Assembly: GCF_004799685.1 (NCBI RefSeq)
Contig: NZ_CP031311.1
Coordinates: forward strand, 744,001 to 808,000
Length of the DNA: 64,000 nt
Direction of reading: 5' to 3'
From: Halobellus limi
Lineage (GTDB): Archaea; Halobacteriota; Halobacteria; Halobacteriales; Haloferacaceae
In this document: positions 46,025-54,963 of the stretch, one piece after another
Numbering within the stretch: the stretch's first letter is position 1
Layout of the letters: the number at the start of each line of letters is the position of its first letter
Translations under genes and position numbers: made by a program
The notes under the pieces: generated by a model
What the model was told of the DNA's origin: nothing
The model's input: only the letters and a program-made list of their open reading frames with translations
Database searches by the model: none

Positions 46025-48451
46025 ATGACAGGAAATACAACCAAGACCCGCGCAGTGATTCTCGCGGCGCTTATGGTCTTCAGCGTCTTCGCTGGGACCG
46101 TGGCGTTCACGGGGAGTGCTGCTGCTGGAACACCGACATACACTGGGAATGCTGTCCACTATGTAAATGAAAGTGGCAGCGGCACCCCTGTAGTTGAAGT
46201 ACCGTTCGAAGGTGGAACCATCGACGTGACCACTGTAAGTAACTCCAGCTTTACGCTGCTGGACGATGGAGACAACGCCAGCGCCTACGTTGAAAACTAC
46301 GAAGTCCGCGATGGTGCTGTCTACATCGAGGTGAACCAAACTATCGCCTCTAACGATTTAGAGGTAGATATTAGTGACACCGTCCAGTCTACCAGCAACG
46401 ACCCTGTGAGTAACCCTGGAGAAAAGTCCATCATCTTCGCAGGTCAAACGCTGGAGTTCGATGAATCCGCACCTACTCCGAGTTCACCGGCTAACTCGAG
46501 TGCATATCAGGGCTCGGTAGTTGCGATTGAGACGAATGCGACGAACACCGATGTGACTGTTGAAGGTGAGGACAACAACTACTTCAGCGAAGGAAGTACT
46601 GGTACCAACAGTACAGTCTTCACTTTTGACACTAGTGACCGCGAAATCGGCGAATACAGAGTCTTCGTTGCGGGTAGCGACGACAGCAACAATCGGACGT
46701 TCATTAACGTCCGCGACCTGCAGCTTGACGTTGAGGTCGACGATCTGAACGTCACCAACGAAGACACGATCGAAGGAACTGTCTCCGCTGTTGCGGGTGG
46801 TCGAAACGTTGATATCGATCTCCTCGACAGCAGTGGAGATAGCGTGAATACGACGAACGTTAACCTGAACGGACAGGGAGAATACGACTTCGAGTTCAAC
46901 ACTCAGACCGCAGACGATGGTTCCGTCCTCGAGACGGGAACCTACACGGTCGAAGTGACTGACACCACCTCCGGTGTCGCAACTGAATCCTCCGATATCG
47001 AGGTCTCAGAGGCGGCTGACGAGGACGTTGACTTCGCGTCTAACGTTATCTCGAACCAGCGTGGTGACTTCCTCGAGGCTACGGTCGAACTGACTTCGAC
47101 TGATACAGCGACGCTCTCGTTCGGTTCACAAAGCGACGGCGTCGTTGCGAACGCCACTGTTGAGGATGACGACGGTGACGGTCAGGTGACCGTCTACCTC
47201 AACACGTACAATATGCAGAACGGCAACGACGTCTACAGCCTAGACAGTGACAGCGACGACGTCATCCTCGATCAGAATAACCCCACGAAGACGTCTGATC
47301 TGATCGACGCGGGGGACTACGACTTCGAGGTCCAGGCCGGTGACCAGGGCGTCGGAACCGGCGTGACGAGCTCCGACGACGTCGCCACGGTGACGCTCGA
47401 AGAGCGCAGTACGGACGCCCTCCGGATGTGGACGGGTAGCTCCGACGAGATCGGCAGCGTCTCCGATCTCGAAGACGTCAACGAAGCGCTTGATGAGGGT
47501 CAGATCACCCAGTCCTCGGAAGTGGCTGTCGGTGATCTCGCGGTTCACCAGCTCGAAGCCTCCGGCTTCGAAGGTGCACTCGACGCTCGTGACAACGAAC
47601 TGGTCACGCAAGAGTTCGTGAATCTTAACCGGACTGGTCCGATCAACCTGACGATCGAAGAGGCCGATCCGGGTGCGAACCAGGCTCCGTCCGAACTCGC
47701 ACTTGACTCCACGAACAACCTGACCGTGATCGCCGATGGTGAGAACGACACCTACTTCATCATCGTCGACACGGGAGAGGCCCAGTTCAAGGGTGGAGAA
47801 GACCTCCCGGCTGACGACGACACGGCGCTGGAGACGAACTTCACCGTCATCAACCGCGACGCTGGGTACGACTTCACGCCTGAAGGCGAGTTCGACTCCG
47901 ACGAGAACGAGGAGACCATCCTCGAGTGGGGCGCCAACGAGCCGGACGTCACTGTCAGCCAGCCGTACAACGTCTCGCAGGCTAGTGGCCAGTCCATCAG
48001 CGGTACGACCAACATCGCTCCGGGCACGGAACTGAATCTCCGCGTCCGTAGTCAGAGCGGGACGAGCCCGAGCTTCCTGAAGACGGCCTCGCCGGTCGTC
48101 GAGTCGGACGGCACGTGGAGTGCCGAGTTCGACTTCAGTGAACAGAACGTCGGCGACGAGTACGACATCGTCGTTAACGCCAACATCCTCGCGAGCGCAA
48201 CCGAGGAAGAAGGCACAGTCGTCGAGGCTGTCGAAACCGACACCGCGACGCCTGAGCCGGACACGGACACGCCTGAGCCGGACACGGACACGCCTGAGCC
48301 GGACACGGACACGCCTGAGCCGGACACGGACACGCCTGAGCCGGACACGGAGACCTCCGAACCGACGGAGACCTCCACGCCCGGCTTCGGTGTCGTCGTC
48401 GCGCTGACGGCACTGCTCGCCGCAGCCCTGCTCGCGACTCGTCGCGACTAA
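46025..48451 (+). CDS. S-layer glycoprotein 1 (PGF-CTERM)
   Basis: The start ATG at 46025 gives 808 residues. The signal peptide (MTGNTTKTRAVILAALMVFS, cleavage after GSAAA) has the haloarchaeal surface-glycoprotein form. The ectodomain begins with a short AVHY module, followed by an Ig-like or beta-sandwich series with many N-x-S/T sites. Residues about 741-776 are five copies of a seven-residue DTPEPDT unit, a likely O-glycosylated spacer. The end, TSTPGFG plus a hydrophobic helix and RRD, is a PGF-CTERM sorting tail for archaeosortase A processing and lipid anchoring. It lacks the N-terminal domain seen in genes 2 and 3. Confidence 0.92.
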   Translation: MTGNTTKTRAVILAALMVFSVFAGTVAFTGSAAAGTPTYTGNAVHYVNESGSGTPVVEVPFEGGTIDVTTVSNSSFTLLDDGDNASAYVENYEVRDGAVYIEVNQTIASNDLEVDISDTVQSTSNDPVSNPGEKSIIFAGQTLEFDESAPTPSSPANSSAYQGSVVAIETNATNTDVTVEGEDNNYFSEGSTGTNSTVFTFDTSDREIGEYRVFVAGSDDSNNRTFINVRDLQLDVEVDDLNVTNEDTIEGTVSAVAGGRNVDIDLLDSSGDSVNTTNVNLNGQGEYDFEFNTQTADDGSVLETGTYTVEVTDTTSGVATESSDIEVSEAADEDVDFASNVISNQRGDFLEATVELTSTDTATLSFGSQSDGVVANATVEDDDGDGQVTVYLNTYNMQNGNDVYSLDSDSDDVILDQNNPTKTSDLIDAGDYDFEVQAGDQGVGTGVTSSDDVATVTLEERSTDALRMWTGSSDEIGSVSDLEDVNEALDEGQITQSSEVAVGDLAVHQLEASGFEGALDARDNELVTQEFVNLNRTGPINLTIEEADPGANQAPSELALDSTNNLTVIADGENDTYFIIVDTGEAQFKGGEDLPADDDTALETNFTVINRDAGYDFTPEGEFDSDENEETILEWGANEPDVTVSQPYNVSQASGQSISGTTNIAPGTELNLRVRSQSGTSPSFLKTASPVVESDGTWSAEFDFSEQNVGDEYDIVVNANILASATEEEGTVVEAVETDTATPEPDTDTPEPDTDTPEPDTDTPEPDTDTPEPDTETSEPTETSTPGFGVVVALTALLAAALLATRRD
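48248..48352 (+). repeat. Five tandem 21-base units in S-layer gene 1
   Basis: Units start at 48248, 48269, 48290, 48311 and 48332. The first four are identical and the last differs at its final base. Each codes for the same seven residues in the Thr/Pro/Glu/Asp spacer before the membrane tail. Genes 2 and 3 have similar but non-repetitive spacers. Confidence 0.95.
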
Positions 48452-48463
48452 GGCTCTGAACTA

Positions 48464-48482
48464 CCGGATCTAATCCGGCTTT
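48464..48482 (+). terminator. Hairpin with T-rich tail after S-layer gene 1
   Basis: Stem ccggat (48464-48469) pairs with atccgg (48473-48478) around a three-base loop, followed by ctttcgacttcccatttcttt. A near copy with the flanking sequence is found after S-layer gene 2 at 51681-51695. Confidence 0.55.
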
Positions 48483-48611
48483 CGACTTCCCATTTCTTTC
48501 GACGCTACGTCGGTTAGCGACAGCTTTGATACGAGTGTCTCTTCGTTCAGTTGCCCGTGATTCTGCTGCGTTTCGCCGGAGTGATTTTCGTCTCTGAGAA
48601 TCGGGAAGGAA

Positions 48612-48735: not shown

Positions 48736-51576
48736 ATGACAACAGAGACAAACAAGATCCGCGCGGTGTTCCTCGCGGCGCTTATGGTTCTCAGCGTCTT
48801 CGCTGGGACCGTGGCGTTCTCGGGGAGCGTTGCAGCGGCGGAAAGCGCAGACGGTGGAAGCGTCTCGAACGAGACGGTGTACGAACAGACTACCAACACG
48901 CACACGGTACAGCTCAACGCGACGCTGAATACGACTGCGACGAACAACCCGTCGAACGCGAACTACACGGTGACTTTCCCGGATTCGCCGGACTTCGACC
49001 TCTCCGCGGAGGATAACTCCACGGTCCAGATCCACGGGACGGGAAGCGGTAACGTCGACGTCTCGAACACCTACTGGGACTCGGCCAACAACAACTTCAC
49101 CGTCGAACTCGCTCGAACGGGTGCAGACGGTTCACCGCACGAACAGGACGTCAACCTCTCGTTCCGGCTTCGGAGCGTCGTCGCTCCGGAAGTGAGCAGC
49201 ACCACGAGCGGACAAGCGTCGTTCGCACTGGATACGAACGCTGACAATACGGACGAGTACTCGACGAACATCCAGCAGTTGACCGTCGAAGCGACGCCCG
49301 AGGGGGCACCCGAACTCGAAAGCGCCGTCCACTACGACGACACCATCGACGGTGGAGTCGGCGTCGAGCTGGCGTTCAGCGAGGCGGTCGACGTCGCCGC
49401 TGACGACATCACCCTCTACGAGGGCGACTCGGAGGTCGACGCCTACACCGTCGAGGACACCGGCGTCACGGGACGCGTCTTCGTCACTACGGACGGGGAG
49501 CTCCTGACCGGCGATCTCAAGGTCGGATTGTCGAGCGACATCGCGGACGTCGACGGTGACACGCTCGTCGACACCGGCAACAATTCCGTCACGTTCGCAC
49601 CCGTAACCGTGGCCGAGACAGACGACAAGAGTGCCTACAAGGGAGGAAACGTCGCGATAATCGGCGATCAGACGAACGACGATGTCGAGATCGAAGGTCC
49701 CGGAAGTTACTATTTCGAGGGCTCGACCGACACGAACAGCGAGGTACTCGTATTTAACACGACGAACCGTGACTTCGGTCAGTACAACGTCAGCATCGAC
49801 GGCAGCAATATTGACAGTACTCAGGTCACGGTTCGTGACCTCGGGTTCGGTGTCACCATTGACGACGTGAATGTCACCACCGACGACACCATTGAAGTGG
49901 ATCTCAGCGCTAACGCCGGAAATCGCGACGTCGAAGTCGATCTCCTCGACAGCAACGGTGACAGCGTCAACTCGACCCAAGTCACGACCGACGGTCAGGG
50001 AGAGGCGATCGTGGAATTCAACACCGCAACCGCTGACGGTGGCGATGCACTCGATACTGGTGACTACACGGTCGAAGCGACCGACCTGTTCTCCGGTGTG
50101 AGTACTGCGTCCCCGACGATTACTGTGAGCCAAGCCGCTGATACGGACGTCAACTTCGCGGAGAACGTAATCGTCAATCAGCGCGGTGACTTCCTCGAAG
50201 CCACCATCGAGATGACTCAGACCTCCGAGGCGACGCTTTCGTTCGGTTCGGAGAGTGACGGCGTCGTCGCGAACGCGACGGTTGACGACGCGGACGGCGA
50301 CGACCAGGTGACCGTACTTCTCAACACATACAACTTCAAGACCGGTGGTAACATCTACAGCTTACCGGATGACAGCGACGATGAACTCCTCGATCAGAAC
50401 CTACACACACCTGCTCTCGATGACCTGATCGACGCAGGCGACTACGACTTCGAGGTCCAGGCCGGCGACCAGGGCGTCGGAACCGGCGTAACGAGTTCCG
50501 ACGACGTCGCTACGGTGACACTCGAAGAGCGAAGCACGGACGCCCTCCGGATGTGGACGGGGAGCTCCGACGAGATCGGGAGCGTCTCCGATCTCGAAGA
50601 CGTCAACGAAGCGCTCGATGAGGGTCAGATCACCCAGTCCTCGGAAGTGGCTGTCGGTGATCTCGCGGTCCATCAGCTCGAAGCCTCTGGCTTCGAGGGT
50701 GCACTCGACGCACGCGAAAACGAGGACGTCACGAGTCAATTCCTGACACTCAACCAGTCTGGCCCGATCAACCTGACGATTGAAGAGGCCAGCCCCGGTG
50801 CGAACCAGCAGTCTCAGGAACTCGCTCTCAACTCCACGAACAACCTGACCGTGATCGCAGACGGTGTGAACGACACTTACTACATCGTCGTTGACACTGG
50901 CGAAGCCCAGTTCAAGGGTGGAGAAGACCTCCCGACGGACGAGGACACGGCACTGGAGACGAACTTCACCGTCATCAACGATGACGCTGGATTCGACTTC
51001 ACGTCGTCTGACCTCGACTCCGACGAGAACGAGGAGACCATCCTCGAGTGGGACGCCAACGAGCCGGACGTCACTGTCAGCCAGCCGTACAACGTCTCGC
51101 AGGCTAGTGGCCAATCCATCGGCGGCACGACCAACATCGCTCCGGGCACGGAACTGAATCTCCGCGTCCGTAGTCAGAGCGGGACGAGCCCGAGCTTCCT
51201 GAAGACGGCCTCGCCGGTCGTCGAGTCGGACGGCACGTGGAGCGCCGAGTTCGACTTCAGTGAACAGAACGTCGGCGACGAGTACGACATCGTCGTCAAC
51301 GCCAACATCCTCGCGAGCGCAACCGAGGAAGAAGGCACAGTCGTCGAGGCCGTCGAGACGCCGACGGCGACGCCTGAACCCGAGACCGACACCTCCCAGA
51401 CGGAGACGGACACGTCTTCCCCGGGGACGGACACGCCTGAACCGGATACGGCGACGCCCGAACCGGCTGCGGGGACCTCCGAACCGACGGAGACCTCCAC
51501 GCCCGGCTTCGGTGTCGTCGTCGCGCTGACGGCGCTTTTGGCCGCGGCCCTGCTCGCGACCCGCCGCGAACGCTAA
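48736..51576 (+). CDS. S-layer glycoprotein 2 (PGF-CTERM)
   Basis: The start ATG at 48736 gives 946 residues with signal peptide MTTETNKIRAVFLAALMVLS, cleaved after GSVAAA. An extra N-terminal domain of about 150 residues precedes the shared AVHYDDT module, which contains VGVELAFSEAVDVAADDITLYEGDSEVDAYTVEDTGVTGRVFVTTDGELLTGDL at 49330-49500. The rest follows gene 1 domain by domain. The segment EVQAGDQGVGTGVTSSDDVA to FEGALDAR is identical in protein to gene 1. The spacer (about residues 874-922) is Thr/Pro/Glu-rich. The PGF-CTERM end is followed by RRER, as in gene 3. Confidence 0.92.
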   Translation: MTTETNKIRAVFLAALMVLSVFAGTVAFSGSVAAAESADGGSVSNETVYEQTTNTHTVQLNATLNTTATNNPSNANYTVTFPDSPDFDLSAEDNSTVQIHGTGSGNVDVSNTYWDSANNNFTVELARTGADGSPHEQDVNLSFRLRSVVAPEVSSTTSGQASFALDTNADNTDEYSTNIQQLTVEATPEGAPELESAVHYDDTIDGGVGVELAFSEAVDVAADDITLYEGDSEVDAYTVEDTGVTGRVFVTTDGELLTGDLKVGLSSDIADVDGDTLVDTGNNSVTFAPVTVAETDDKSAYKGGNVAIIGDQTNDDVEIEGPGSYYFEGSTDTNSEVLVFNTTNRDFGQYNVSIDGSNIDSTQVTVRDLGFGVTIDDVNVTTDDTIEVDLSANAGNRDVEVDLLDSNGDSVNSTQVTTDGQGEAIVEFNTATADGGDALDTGDYTVEATDLFSGVSTASPTITVSQAADTDVNFAENVIVNQRGDFLEATIEMTQTSEATLSFGSESDGVVANATVDDADGDDQVTVLLNTYNFKTGGNIYSLPDDSDDELLDQNLHTPALDDLIDAGDYDFEVQAGDQGVGTGVTSSDDVATVTLEERSTDALRMWTGSSDEIGSVSDLEDVNEALDEGQITQSSEVAVGDLAVHQLEASGFEGALDARENEDVTSQFLTLNQSGPINLTIEEASPGANQQSQELALNSTNNLTVIADGVNDTYYIVVDTGEAQFKGGEDLPTDEDTALETNFTVINDDAGFDFTSSDLDSDENEETILEWDANEPDVTVSQPYNVSQASGQSIGGTTNIAPGTELNLRVRSQSGTSPSFLKTASPVVESDGTWSAEFDFSEQNVGDEYDIVVNANILASATEEEGTVVEAVETPTATPEPETDTSQTETDTSSPGTDTPEPDTATPEPAAGTSEPTETSTPGFGVVVALTALLAAALLATRRER

Positions 51577-51586
51577 CGCGTTCGCG
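51565..51586 (+). terminator. Perfect hairpin over the stop codon of S-layer gene 2
   Basis: cgcgaacgc (51565-51573) pairs with gcgttcgcg (51578-51586); the four-base loop taac contains the TAA stop. Gene 3 has the same arrangement at 54891-54912 with one mismatch. A role in termination or mRNA stability is inferred. Confidence 0.5.
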
Positions 51587-51610
51587 AGCGCCCGTCTCCG
51601 ACGAGGACGC

Positions 51611-51635
51611 CGTGAGAACTAACTGAGTTCTCACG
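51611..51635 (+). terminator. Ten-base perfect hairpin after S-layer gene 2
   Basis: cgtgagaact (51611-51620) pairs completely with agttctcacg (51626-51635) around aactg. It lies 35 bases after the stop codon. It lies between the two copies of the 14-base direct repeat. Confidence 0.55.
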
Positions 51636-51921
51636 AGCCCTCGTCTTCGACGAGGACGCCGCGACTAAACCGCTGAACCACCGGATCGAATCCGGCCGTT
51701 CGACTTCCTTTTCTTTCGGACGCGACGATCGAGAGCGGCAGCGCCGCGTACGTGTTGTTCGCTGTCTCGCCCGAACCCGACCCGTCGGCGGTACTCGTTT
51801 CGACTGTTTGCCGTCGTCGCTCAAATCGAGAGCCGACGGCCCGCCTCCCGGTATCGGCCGTTATACACCGACTAAACGGTCGGTAAGAACGTGTTAGTCT
51901 GCGAGTAGTTGTATGGCAACC

Positions 51922-52085: not shown

Positions 52086-54902
52086 ATGACAGACCACACG
52101 AACCAGCGCCGCGCGGTGTTCCTCGCGGCGGTTATGATCTGCAGCGTCTTCGCCGGGGTCACGGCGTTCGCCGGGAGTACGGCGGCGGATCTGCACGGCA
52201 CAGACAACCCGGTGACGGTCGAGAACCCCGACACCGGCGCAACGACGACGCACACGCTGAACGTCTCCGCGAGCGACGGCACCTGGCCGGCGCCGATGGA
52301 CACCGACAGGATCAAAATCGACTACAGCGTCGGCTCGCAGGCGGCCGACGTGAGCGGCGTCGGCGCCGGCGACGTCACAGTCGTCATCGACGAGGCCGAC
52401 GGCAGCACGACGGACGTTGACGTCGACAGCGTCGCTAGCTCCAACGGCGGCGAGACGCTGACCATCGAGCTGTCGAGCGTCGAGGACGTCGGCGACGGCG
52501 ACGACGTGAGCGTGCGGCTCGACGGCGTCACGAACCCGCCGAACGCGGGCACCTACAACGTGAACTTCCGGGTCTCCGACGGCGGGAGCGGAGCCCAGAT
52601 CGCCGAGCTCTCCTATTCGATCGGCGACCAGTCGGAGGCGCCGCCGCAGCTCACGAAGGCCGTTCACTACGACGACACGGGTGACGAGGGAGTCGGCGTC
52701 GAACTCGCGTTCAGCGAGGCGGTCGACATCGCCGCCGACGACGTCACCCTCTACGAGGACGACAGCGAGGTCGACTCCTACACCGTCGAAGACACCGGCG
52801 TCACGGGACGCGTCTTCGTCACCACGGACGGCGAGCTCCTGACCGGCGATCTGGAGGTCGAACTGTCCGACGACGTCGCGGACCTCGACGGCAACACGCT
52901 CGTCGACACCGGACGCAACGACGTCACGTTCGCGCCGGTGACGGTGAAGACGAACGACGACCGGGGCGCCTACCGAGGGAGCACCGTCGCCATCGTCAGC
53001 GACAGCGGGACCGACGTCGGTATCCAGATCGAGGGTCCGGACCAGTACTTTTTCGACGGCTCGACGGACACGAACAGCGAGGTGTTCGTCTTCGATACGG
53101 AGGGGCGGGACCTCGGCGAGTACAACTTCGGCATCGCGGGCAGCGACAACGAGGACACCCGGCTCGATCTGCGTGACCTCGGGCTGGCGGTGACCGTCGA
53201 CGACGCCACCGTCACGAACGCGGAGGCCATCGAGGGGACCGTCGAGGCCCGAAGCGCCGATCGACCGCTCACGGTCGAACTGCTCGACGGCGGCGGCGAC
53301 ACGGTCGACGGATCGGAGACGGCCGCGACGCTCAACGGCCAGGGCGAGTACGACTTCGCGTTCGACCTCTCCCCGTCCGGACTCGACGTGGACCCGGGGA
53401 CGTACACGGTCCGGGTGACCGACGACTACTCCGGCGTCGAGGCCGACTCCTCGGACGTCACCGTCCGGGCGGCGAGCGAGGAGGACGCGCAGTTCGCGAG
53501 CGGCACAGTCACCGACCAGCGCGGTGACGTCGTCGCGATCACGGTCGACATAGAACGCACCGATCAGGCGACGGTGACCGTCGGTACCGAAGAGCAGGGT
53601 CTCGTCTCGACGGCGACCGTCGAGGACGGGAACGACGACGGGACGGTCACGCTGTATCTCGACACGTCGATCGGCGCGCTCGCGCAGTCGGAGGGATCCT
53701 CCAGCACCGGTGGGTACGGGATCTACACGGTCGCCGCTGACGACGACGAGGTCGTCGCGGCCGGTCTCTCGTCCAACGTCGACGACCTGATCGACGCCGG
53801 GACCTACGACCTCGAAGTGACGCCGGGACGGGACGCTTCGGCGGACTCGACCGACATCGCCTCGCTCGTCCTCGAAGAGCGCGGGACGACCGCGTTCGAC
53901 ACGTGGACGGCTCCGGGGTCGCTCTCGGTCTCCGACCTCGAAGACGTGACGACGGCGATCGAGAACGACGAACTCACGCGGGCCTCCGAGGTCGCCCGTG
54001 GCGACAAGGTCGTCCATCGTCTCCAGGCGTCCGGCTTCGAGGGCGTCCTCGGCGCACAGGGTGACGAGGACGTCACGGCCGCGTTCTTCGACAACGCCGG
54101 CTCTGGAACCGGTATCTACGACCTGACCGTCGAACAGTCGCAGGCCGGCGCGAATCAGGATCCGTTCGAGGTCGCGCTCGGTCCCGACAACACGACCGTC
54201 GTCGCCGACGGTGACGGCGACACCTACTACGTCGTCGTCGACACGAGCGCAGTCACGACGACTCGCTCGGACGGCGAACTCCCCGCCGACGAATCGCTGA
54301 CGGCGGAGTTCACCGTCTACGACGACGACTCGACTGACTTCCTCCCCGACGACGTCGACGAGAATCAGACGACCTCCGTCGACTACGACGTCGTCGAACC
54401 CGAGATCACGGTGAGCGAACCCCACGACGTCGCCCCCGCCGGCGGACAGACGATCACCGGCACGACGACGTACGCGCCGGGGACGGAACTGCGCGTCCGC
54501 GTCCGGAGCGCGGGCGAGACCAGTCCGAGCTTCCTGAAGACGGCGGCGCCCACGGTGGGGCCGGACCGGCGGTGGAGCGCGACGCTCGACTTCGCAGAGC
54601 AGAATGTCGGCGACACCTACGAGATCGTCGTCGAAGGCGACGACGCGGAGACGACCGAGGACGGCGAGGTCGTCGAGGCCGTCGAGACCCCGGCCGAGAC
54701 GCCGGGTCCGGATACGGACACGCCGGATTCGACCGCGACGGACACGGCGACGGCCGAACCCGACACCACCACCGCGGCTTCCGAACCGGGGACGACCGAA
54801 CCCGCGACGGAGACGTCGACCGCCACGCCCGGCTTCGGCGTCGTCGTCGCGCTGACGGCGCTTTTGGCCGCGGCCCTGCTCGCGGCGCGCCGAGAACGCT
54901 AA
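52086..54902 (+). CDS. S-layer glycoprotein 3 (PGF-CTERM)
   Basis: The start ATG at 52086 gives 938 residues. Signal peptide MTDHTNQRRAVFLAAVMICS is cleaved after GSTAA. The N-terminal domain is different from gene 2, but the AVHYDDT module and the series that follows align with it. Base composition is markedly more GC-rich and the sequence has fewer N-x-S/T sites than gene 1. The spacer (about residues 868-915) is Thr/Ala/Asp-rich, and TATPGFG with a hydrophobic helix and RRER closes the PGF-CTERM tail. It is a full-length paralogue, not a relic. Confidence 0.92.
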   Translation: MTDHTNQRRAVFLAAVMICSVFAGVTAFAGSTAADLHGTDNPVTVENPDTGATTTHTLNVSASDGTWPAPMDTDRIKIDYSVGSQAADVSGVGAGDVTVVIDEADGSTTDVDVDSVASSNGGETLTIELSSVEDVGDGDDVSVRLDGVTNPPNAGTYNVNFRVSDGGSGAQIAELSYSIGDQSEAPPQLTKAVHYDDTGDEGVGVELAFSEAVDIAADDVTLYEDDSEVDSYTVEDTGVTGRVFVTTDGELLTGDLEVELSDDVADLDGNTLVDTGRNDVTFAPVTVKTNDDRGAYRGSTVAIVSDSGTDVGIQIEGPDQYFFDGSTDTNSEVFVFDTEGRDLGEYNFGIAGSDNEDTRLDLRDLGLAVTVDDATVTNAEAIEGTVEARSADRPLTVELLDGGGDTVDGSETAATLNGQGEYDFAFDLSPSGLDVDPGTYTVRVTDDYSGVEADSSDVTVRAASEEDAQFASGTVTDQRGDVVAITVDIERTDQATVTVGTEEQGLVSTATVEDGNDDGTVTLYLDTSIGALAQSEGSSSTGGYGIYTVAADDDEVVAAGLSSNVDDLIDAGTYDLEVTPGRDASADSTDIASLVLEERGTTAFDTWTAPGSLSVSDLEDVTTAIENDELTRASEVARGDKVVHRLQASGFEGVLGAQGDEDVTAAFFDNAGSGTGIYDLTVEQSQAGANQDPFEVALGPDNTTVVADGDGDTYYVVVDTSAVTTTRSDGELPADESLTAEFTVYDDDSTDFLPDDVDENQTTSVDYDVVEPEITVSEPHDVAPAGGQTITGTTTYAPGTELRVRVRSAGETSPSFLKTAAPTVGPDRRWSATLDFAEQNVGDTYEIVVEGDDAETTEDGEVVEAVETPAETPGPDTDTPDSTATDTATAEPDTTTAASEPGTTEPATETSTATPGFGVVVALTALLAAALLAARRER

Positions 54903-54963
54903 CGCGTTCGCGAGCGCCGTCTCCGACACCGACGCTTTTGCCGCACGGGCCCTACTGTGAGGT

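Follow-up and report, generated by a model that had tools for sequence, protein, structure and literature searches.

The bacterial REPs of the GTAG and CGTC superfamilies are short, dispersed palindromes that lie mainly between genes and close to gene 3′ ends, and the termini of GTAG REPs often supply the stop codon TAG (PMC3733652, excerpts). REPs close to a stop codon were reported to stall ribosomes (PMC12306157, excerpt). The PATEs of Haloquadratum walsbyi are haloarchaeal, transposase-free palindromes with no target duplication and with forms down to 52 bp, and they are tied to IS605-type transposons (PMC3119063, excerpts). Considering these descriptions, the nearest known systems to the module that was found here at the ends of S-layer-type genes of Halobellus limi and other haloarchaea are the bacterial REPs, a part of which provide stop codons, and the PATEs. 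The haloarchaeal repeats resemble REPs in being short and dispersed and in lying mostly between genes, close to gene 3′ ends, and they resemble PATEs in their host range, their palindromes, and the absence of a transposase and of target duplications. However, whereas a REP is a single hairpin with an unpaired GTAG or CGTC tag, the haloarchaeal unit has two different hairpins in a fixed order, and its stop codon sits in a hairpin loop rather than at a terminus as in the GTAG REPs (PMC3733652, excerpts). The CGTC tags of REPs vary to TGTC (PMC3733652, excerpts), and the haloarchaeal repeats frequently have GACG or GACA at their end, the other-strand equivalents of CGTC and TGTC as read by eye without alignment to the REP families. 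The phyla listed for the CGTC repeats in the same excerpts were all bacterial, while the haloarchaeal repeat was seen only in haloarchaea in our searches. REPs are paired with a tyrosine transposase (RAYT, Y1_Tnp), but Y1_Tnp (PF01797) was absent in six of the eight repeat-bearing genomes searched (G000, G066, G090, G097, G063, and G083) and present only in G018 and G045. In the full-text literature searched, which covers few subscription papers, neither this repeat family nor hairpins at the stop codons of S-layer genes were found to be described.

The window, which is the whole stretch of 64,000 nucleotides that was analysed, contains three tandem genes for PGF-CTERM S-layer-type glycoproteins on the forward strand. 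Gene 1 (46025..48451, frame checked) ends in RRD-stop, while gene 2 (48736..51576) and gene 3 (52086..54902) both end in RRER-stop. All three scored above the cut-offs of the N-terminal halo_sig_pep model (TIGR04207; 46.5, 51.7, and 37.3 bits for genes 1, 2, and 3, cut-off 24.6) and of the PGF_CTERM model (TIGR04126; 48.3, 49.2, and 42.5 bits, cut-off 24.5). With the full-length S-layer equivalog NF041335 they reached only 505–537 bits against a cut-off of 1100, and they are therefore called S-layer-type rather than proven S-layer proteins. The charged tail of PGF-CTERM proteins, which are archaeosortase substrates, is removed on processing. A total of 78 ORFs was collected, of which 74 were kept as PGF-CTERM tails and 73 were placed in a quick tree, the others being short or without the motif. 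Genes 1 and 2 were sisters in this tree, and gene 3 belonged to another S-layer clade. Gene 1 carries perfect 21-base tandem repeats at 48243–48369 in its Thr/Pro/Asp-rich stalk (PEPDTDT), and their copy number is likely variable. On a larger scale gene 2 is mosaic: a stretch of its N-terminal half (49312–49611 vs. 52647–52946) has 79–89% DNA identity to gene 3, and much of 50449–51336 in its C-terminal half is mostly 75–99% identical to gene 1.

The simple form of the site is seen in gene 1 (48440..48510), where the RRD stop at 48449–48451 is followed by a hairpin at 48464–48478; cgcgactaaggct, which an earlier sequence-only reading of this DNA had placed at 48441, starts at 48443. That reading had described two ends at gene 2, and we found a third between them, CGCCGTGAGAACTAA at 51608–51622, which encodes RREN-stop. 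From 5′ to 3′, the ends of gene 2 are CGCCGCGAACGCTAAC at 51562 (RRER, the working stop), CGCCGTGAGAACTAAC at 51608 (RREN), and CGCCGCGACTAA at 51657..51668 (RRD). The second and third lie 46 and 95 bases downstream of the first, and both are out of frame with gene 2. The 95 bases before the displaced RRD end consist of a two-hairpin module that is present twice in a stack on the forward strand, M1 (46 bases, 51562..51607) and M2 (49 bases, 51608..51656), which scored 68.6 and 62.3 bits with R1, a covariance model built from seven tail modules. Each module consists of hairpin A, the letters AGC or similar, and a second hairpin with a GAGGA end. In M1, which was also recovered by a pattern search and an inverted-repeat scan, hairpin A pairs 51565–51573 with 51578–51586 around the working stop (51574–51576) and is followed by a degraded hairpin B. 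In M2, hairpin A pairs 51611–51620 with 51626–51635 at the displaced RREN end (stop 51620–51622), and hairpin B reads CCTCGTC-TTC-GACGAGG. The stops of M1 and M2 each lie in the loop of a perfect hairpin of nine pairs; in hairpin A of M2 (51611–51635) a tenth pair is possible, which takes in the T of its stop. Since the hairpin B half is nearly alike in both modules (19 of 20 bases), one module may have arisen from the other by tandem copying rather than as a separate arrival. An imperfect direct repeat (51582–51615 and 51631–51664, 85%) runs through the same region, and an 8-bp direct repeat, CGCCGCGA, stands at both ends of the 95-base stretch (51562–51569 and 51657–51664). The end of gene 3 (54886..54935, forward strand) has a degraded, cut-short copy of M1 (R1 37.8 bits; hairpin A pattern at 54888–54915). 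Apart from two chance-level matches, an Rfam scan of 51400–51900 gave nothing, and plasmid records held nothing similar to 51540–51740.

The gene-1-type end left behind gene 2 was confirmed, as 51657–51728 aligned with the end of gene 1 from 48440 at 83% identity over 72 columns (E 6e-15, with a small subject). The sequence-only reading had named a chance-level match here as evidence against it. The match is better than chance, because a CCGG-loop-CCGG hairpin of the same kind lies no more than 200 nt past the stop in 44 of the 65 module-free PGF-CTERM tails among the 74 tails from relatives. In 35 of these 44 tails the hairpin lies within 19 nt of the stop, while in gene 2 it is found at +105; the distance of 19 in the module-bearing tail L077 refers to hairpin B of its own module, not to a terminator. 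This conserved S-layer 3′ UTR behind gene 2 (51669..51728, forward strand) comprises the CCGG hairpin at 51681–51695 and then a T-rich stretch. On the simplest reading, the end behind gene 2 would be the normal genus-wide S-layer 3′ UTR pushed downstream, and it is probably still a transcription terminator and not a relic.

The module is not restricted to this locus. In total, 10 PGF-CTERM genes from nine genomes and five genera (g1, which is Halobellus, g5, g10, g18, and g28) were found to carry it at their ends. The same layout was seen in G008 (L050, RRES), G013 (L044, RREN), G011 (L094, RRES with TAG), and G020 (L077, RREN), and the tail of G033 (L084) is a stack of two modules with three RREN-type ends; G299 (L188), G141 (L189), and G143 (L193), together with genes 2 and 3, complete the set. 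L188, L189, and L193 are included in neither the 74 tails nor the 73 tree rows. An older end was recognisable behind the module in seven of the 10 (gene 2, L050, L077, L084, L188, L189, and L193) and was not recognised in gene 3, L044, and L094. A simple end and a module-bearing end stand side by side in G008, and the hairpin of G143 has imperfect pairing, with the stop in the stem instead of the loop. The second hairpins of the stacked modules in L084 and L094 are unrelated to each other, and the stacked modules there are therefore not tandem copies. Hairpin A was 100% paired in all seven tail modules, with changes on both sides at four of its nine pairs. In 6 of the 74 tails the stop lay within a perfectly paired stem of nine pairs or more, as compared with a rate of 0.00027 from shuffled UTR letters. 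When 170 genomes of the family were searched with a generalised hairpin A pattern, it matched four places in three of them, and each was one of the module tails given above. A strict nested-palindrome scan recovered L084 and missed the other tails, because the arms of neighbouring hairpins vary between copies. In a congener of G033 (G056, L090 2261), the tail seems to hold a rearranged module, with the second hairpin inside the remains of hairpin A.

Searching the 391 genomes of the class with R1 gave 25 matches at E ≤ 1e-8. Seven of them scored above 60 bits, and all seven were PGF-CTERM gene ends; five of these had been used to build the model, which leaves G299 and G141 as the independent ones. 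The high R1 scores of the seven modules in its training set are likewise not independent. The tails newly brought in by R1 were those of G299 and G141 (63–64 bits) and of G143 (46 bits). R1 also matched many lower-scoring places outside tails in other haloarchaea, several of them repeated within one genome. A second covariance model, R2, was built from 20 such dispersed copies only, with no tails. Among these copies, changes on both sides were found at 12 of 15 pairs, and the covariation score exceeded all 500 shuffles. In 533,558 bases from 61 sources, R2 gave six matches at E ≤ 0.1, and five were S-layer tails: L084 (57.9 bits), L094 (48.3), L050 (44.3), M2 at 51606–51659 (41.2, E 5e-6), and L077 (38.9). 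The sixth was a dispersed copy (L043:12807, 49.1 bits). M1 of gene 2, the tail of gene 3, and that of G013 were not recovered by R2 at the same threshold. As a model built without tails still picked out five tails, the modules belong to a dispersed family of palindromic repeats. About seven dispersed copies were present in the Halobellus limi genome outside the window at E ≤ 3e-4, and at least 61 of 99 relatives had matches at E ≤ 1e-4, with at least 54 in the richest genome. A 111-base query around one dispersed copy hit 19 plasmid records, all haloarchaeal by name, for example, Halobacterium salinarum pNRC100 and Haloarcula hispanica pHH126. A search for a link between the repeat and IS605/TnpB or Y1 transposases found none at the loci covered. 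R2 had no match at E ≤ 0.1 in 11 Y1_Tnp loci of G018 and G045, and two TnpB loci of the Halobellus limi genome gave only a 9.7-bit partial match, both being small samples; in this respect the repeats differ from PATEs with their IS605-type transposons (PMC3119063, excerpts).

Based on the module stack and its relation to dispersed repeats, we consider it likely that repeat copies and exchange between paralogues together rebuilt the end of gene 2. The native end would have had the form of gene 1, that is, -RRD, a stop, and a short 3′ UTR with the CCGG hairpin and T-rich tail. Copies of the dispersed two-hairpin repeat would have inserted where two arginine codons (CGCCG) stand close to the stop, and the 5′ hairpin of each copy, reading -RRE(N or R) with the stop codon in its loop, would have provided a nearly equivalent protein end. 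With each entry, the existing stop and terminator would have been shifted further downstream, first by 49 and later by 46 bases, and the positions of the modules suggest that M2 came first and M1 last. Exchange between paralogues, in whichever direction, accounts for what genes 2 and 3 share here, namely the outer module and some of the last helix. The downstream CCGG hairpin would still end the transcript, and the changed ends may have been tolerated because the charged PGF-CTERM tail is removed on processing. Neither a transposase nor a target duplication was seen at the modules. If this history is right, palindromic repeats rewrite the stop codon and 3′ UTR of genes that are probably among the most expressed in these archaea, and the older gene ends stay downstream as a readable record. 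A single locus thereby makes several questions about haloarchaeal repeats testable, including their mobility, what moves them, and the effect of a stop-codon hairpin on translation and RNA ends.

A narrower proposal, which we put forward only tentatively, is that a subfamily of the repeat, with -RREN-stop in its first hairpin, has become a stop-codon cassette of S-layer-type genes, moving between PGF-CTERM ends across genera, stacking, and keeping the older stops as a record. It is favoured because the 25-base hairpin of M2 was found exactly in 4 of the 391 genomes, from three genera and always at a PGF-CTERM gene end, and no variant of one or two mismatches was found in the 391 genomes.

The sequence-only reading had explained the same end by recombination with gene 3: gene 2, once ending like gene 1, would have received the tail of gene 3, and the old end would be a relic. 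Its observation of a gene-3-type 3′ end through the stop held up. In the alignment of the three ends, gene 2 resembles gene 1 to about 51513 and then gene 3 across 51534..51601 (forward strand). At positions that distinguish gene 1 from gene 3, gene 2 was gene-1-type at five of five in 51486–51513 and gene-3-type at five of five in 51534–51546, after which the sites were mixed (51559 gene 1, 51561 neither, 51564 gene 3, 51567 gene 1, and 51570 gene 3). From there on, gene 2 and gene 3 stay identical as far as 51601, beyond the stop, except for a single 1-base indel and three mismatches (51559, 51561, and 51567). Over 50422–51576, 311 sites were gene-1-type, 41 gene-3-type, and 29 other, and the longest gene-3-type run was 5 (permutation p = 0.005). 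The 66-nt tails of genes 2 and 3 had an identity of 0.939, higher than all 56 cross-clade pairs between different genomes (maximum 0.909), and the codon pair CTT TTG at the tract was confined to these two among 16 tails compared. Considering that genes 1 and 2 are sisters and gene 3 lies in the other clade, the common tract reflects exchange. A pair in G007 is comparable, with members from two clades that share 50% identity in the C-terminal domain and tails that are 98.5% identical (0.985). As judged from these alignments, tail exchange between S-layer paralogues is real and is documented by both pairs. The S-layer genes of Haloferax also recombine (PMC5867893, excerpts), but between strains, whereas the exchange here concerns tandem paralogues of one genome and the tail only. 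Both G007 genes (L046 9514 and 6329) have decayed module remnants after their stops (26.6 and 23.5 bits).

Nevertheless, as the full explanation of the gene 2 end, recombination with gene 3 is unlikely. The short shared tract and the older gene-1-type end displaced downstream agree with it, but the exchange alone leaves M2 with its RREN stop unaccounted for, gene-1-type bases persist at 51559 and 51567 inside the tract, and the module is truncated in gene 3, not in gene 2. An occurrence of the arrangement in distant species, which the sequence-only reading had named as evidence against it, was found in part: other species and genera show the arrangement with tails not copied from gene 3. As for direction, gene 2 as the donor of the shared tail to gene 3 would fit slightly better, because of the persisting gene-1-type bases and because the module of gene 3 is cut short in hairpin B.

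The 8-bp direct repeat allows a different course, in which the stack was already present in the common ancestor of genes 1 and 2, and gene 1 lost the 95 bases between the copies of CGCCGCGA, giving its present form. Such a repeat would permit a clean deletion, genes 1 and 2 are sisters, G013 of the same clade has a module, and the G007 genes carry their decayed remnants (26.6 and 23.5 bits). However, a module is absent from 64 of the 73 rows of the tree, among them the near relatives L041, L042, and L043, and a plain end is therefore likelier to be ancestral; we regard the loss in gene 1 as improbable. The seven module rows needed seven changes on the quick tree, no fewer than the mean of 6.8 for shuffled labels, and parsimony on this tree cannot separate module gains from losses.

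A further reading, in which the hairpins formed locally through template switching at short inverted repeats, or are kept by selection as RNA structures around the stop codon, with no relation in either case to the dispersed repeats, is very unlikely. In its favour, their pairs are nearly all Watson–Crick with changes on both sides, the 180-nt RNA of 51556–51735 folds at z = −5.5 (a value compatible with every reading), and bacterial REPs close to a stop codon were reported to stall ribosomes (PMC12306157, excerpt), but the unpaired parts are also common to the modules (CGCCG before, AGC between, and GGACGCC after), and R2, a model of dispersed copies only, selects these tails.

Entry of dispersed repeat copies remains the reading that we prefer, and a few minor observations were made on these copies. 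In some genera, copies (L190, L191, L195, L196, L200, and L203, near 1501) were found several hundred bases from tRNA-Val genes, and several of these were preceded by GGTTCRAATCCGCC, which resembles a tRNA T-arm. No tRNA genes were found near the copies scanned in the Halobellus limi genome (L104, L172, L173, L175, and L178). At G000:C1:1748109-1748485 (L104, L174, and L176), three dispersed copies in both orientations lie within 400 bases and adjoin longer inverted repeats.
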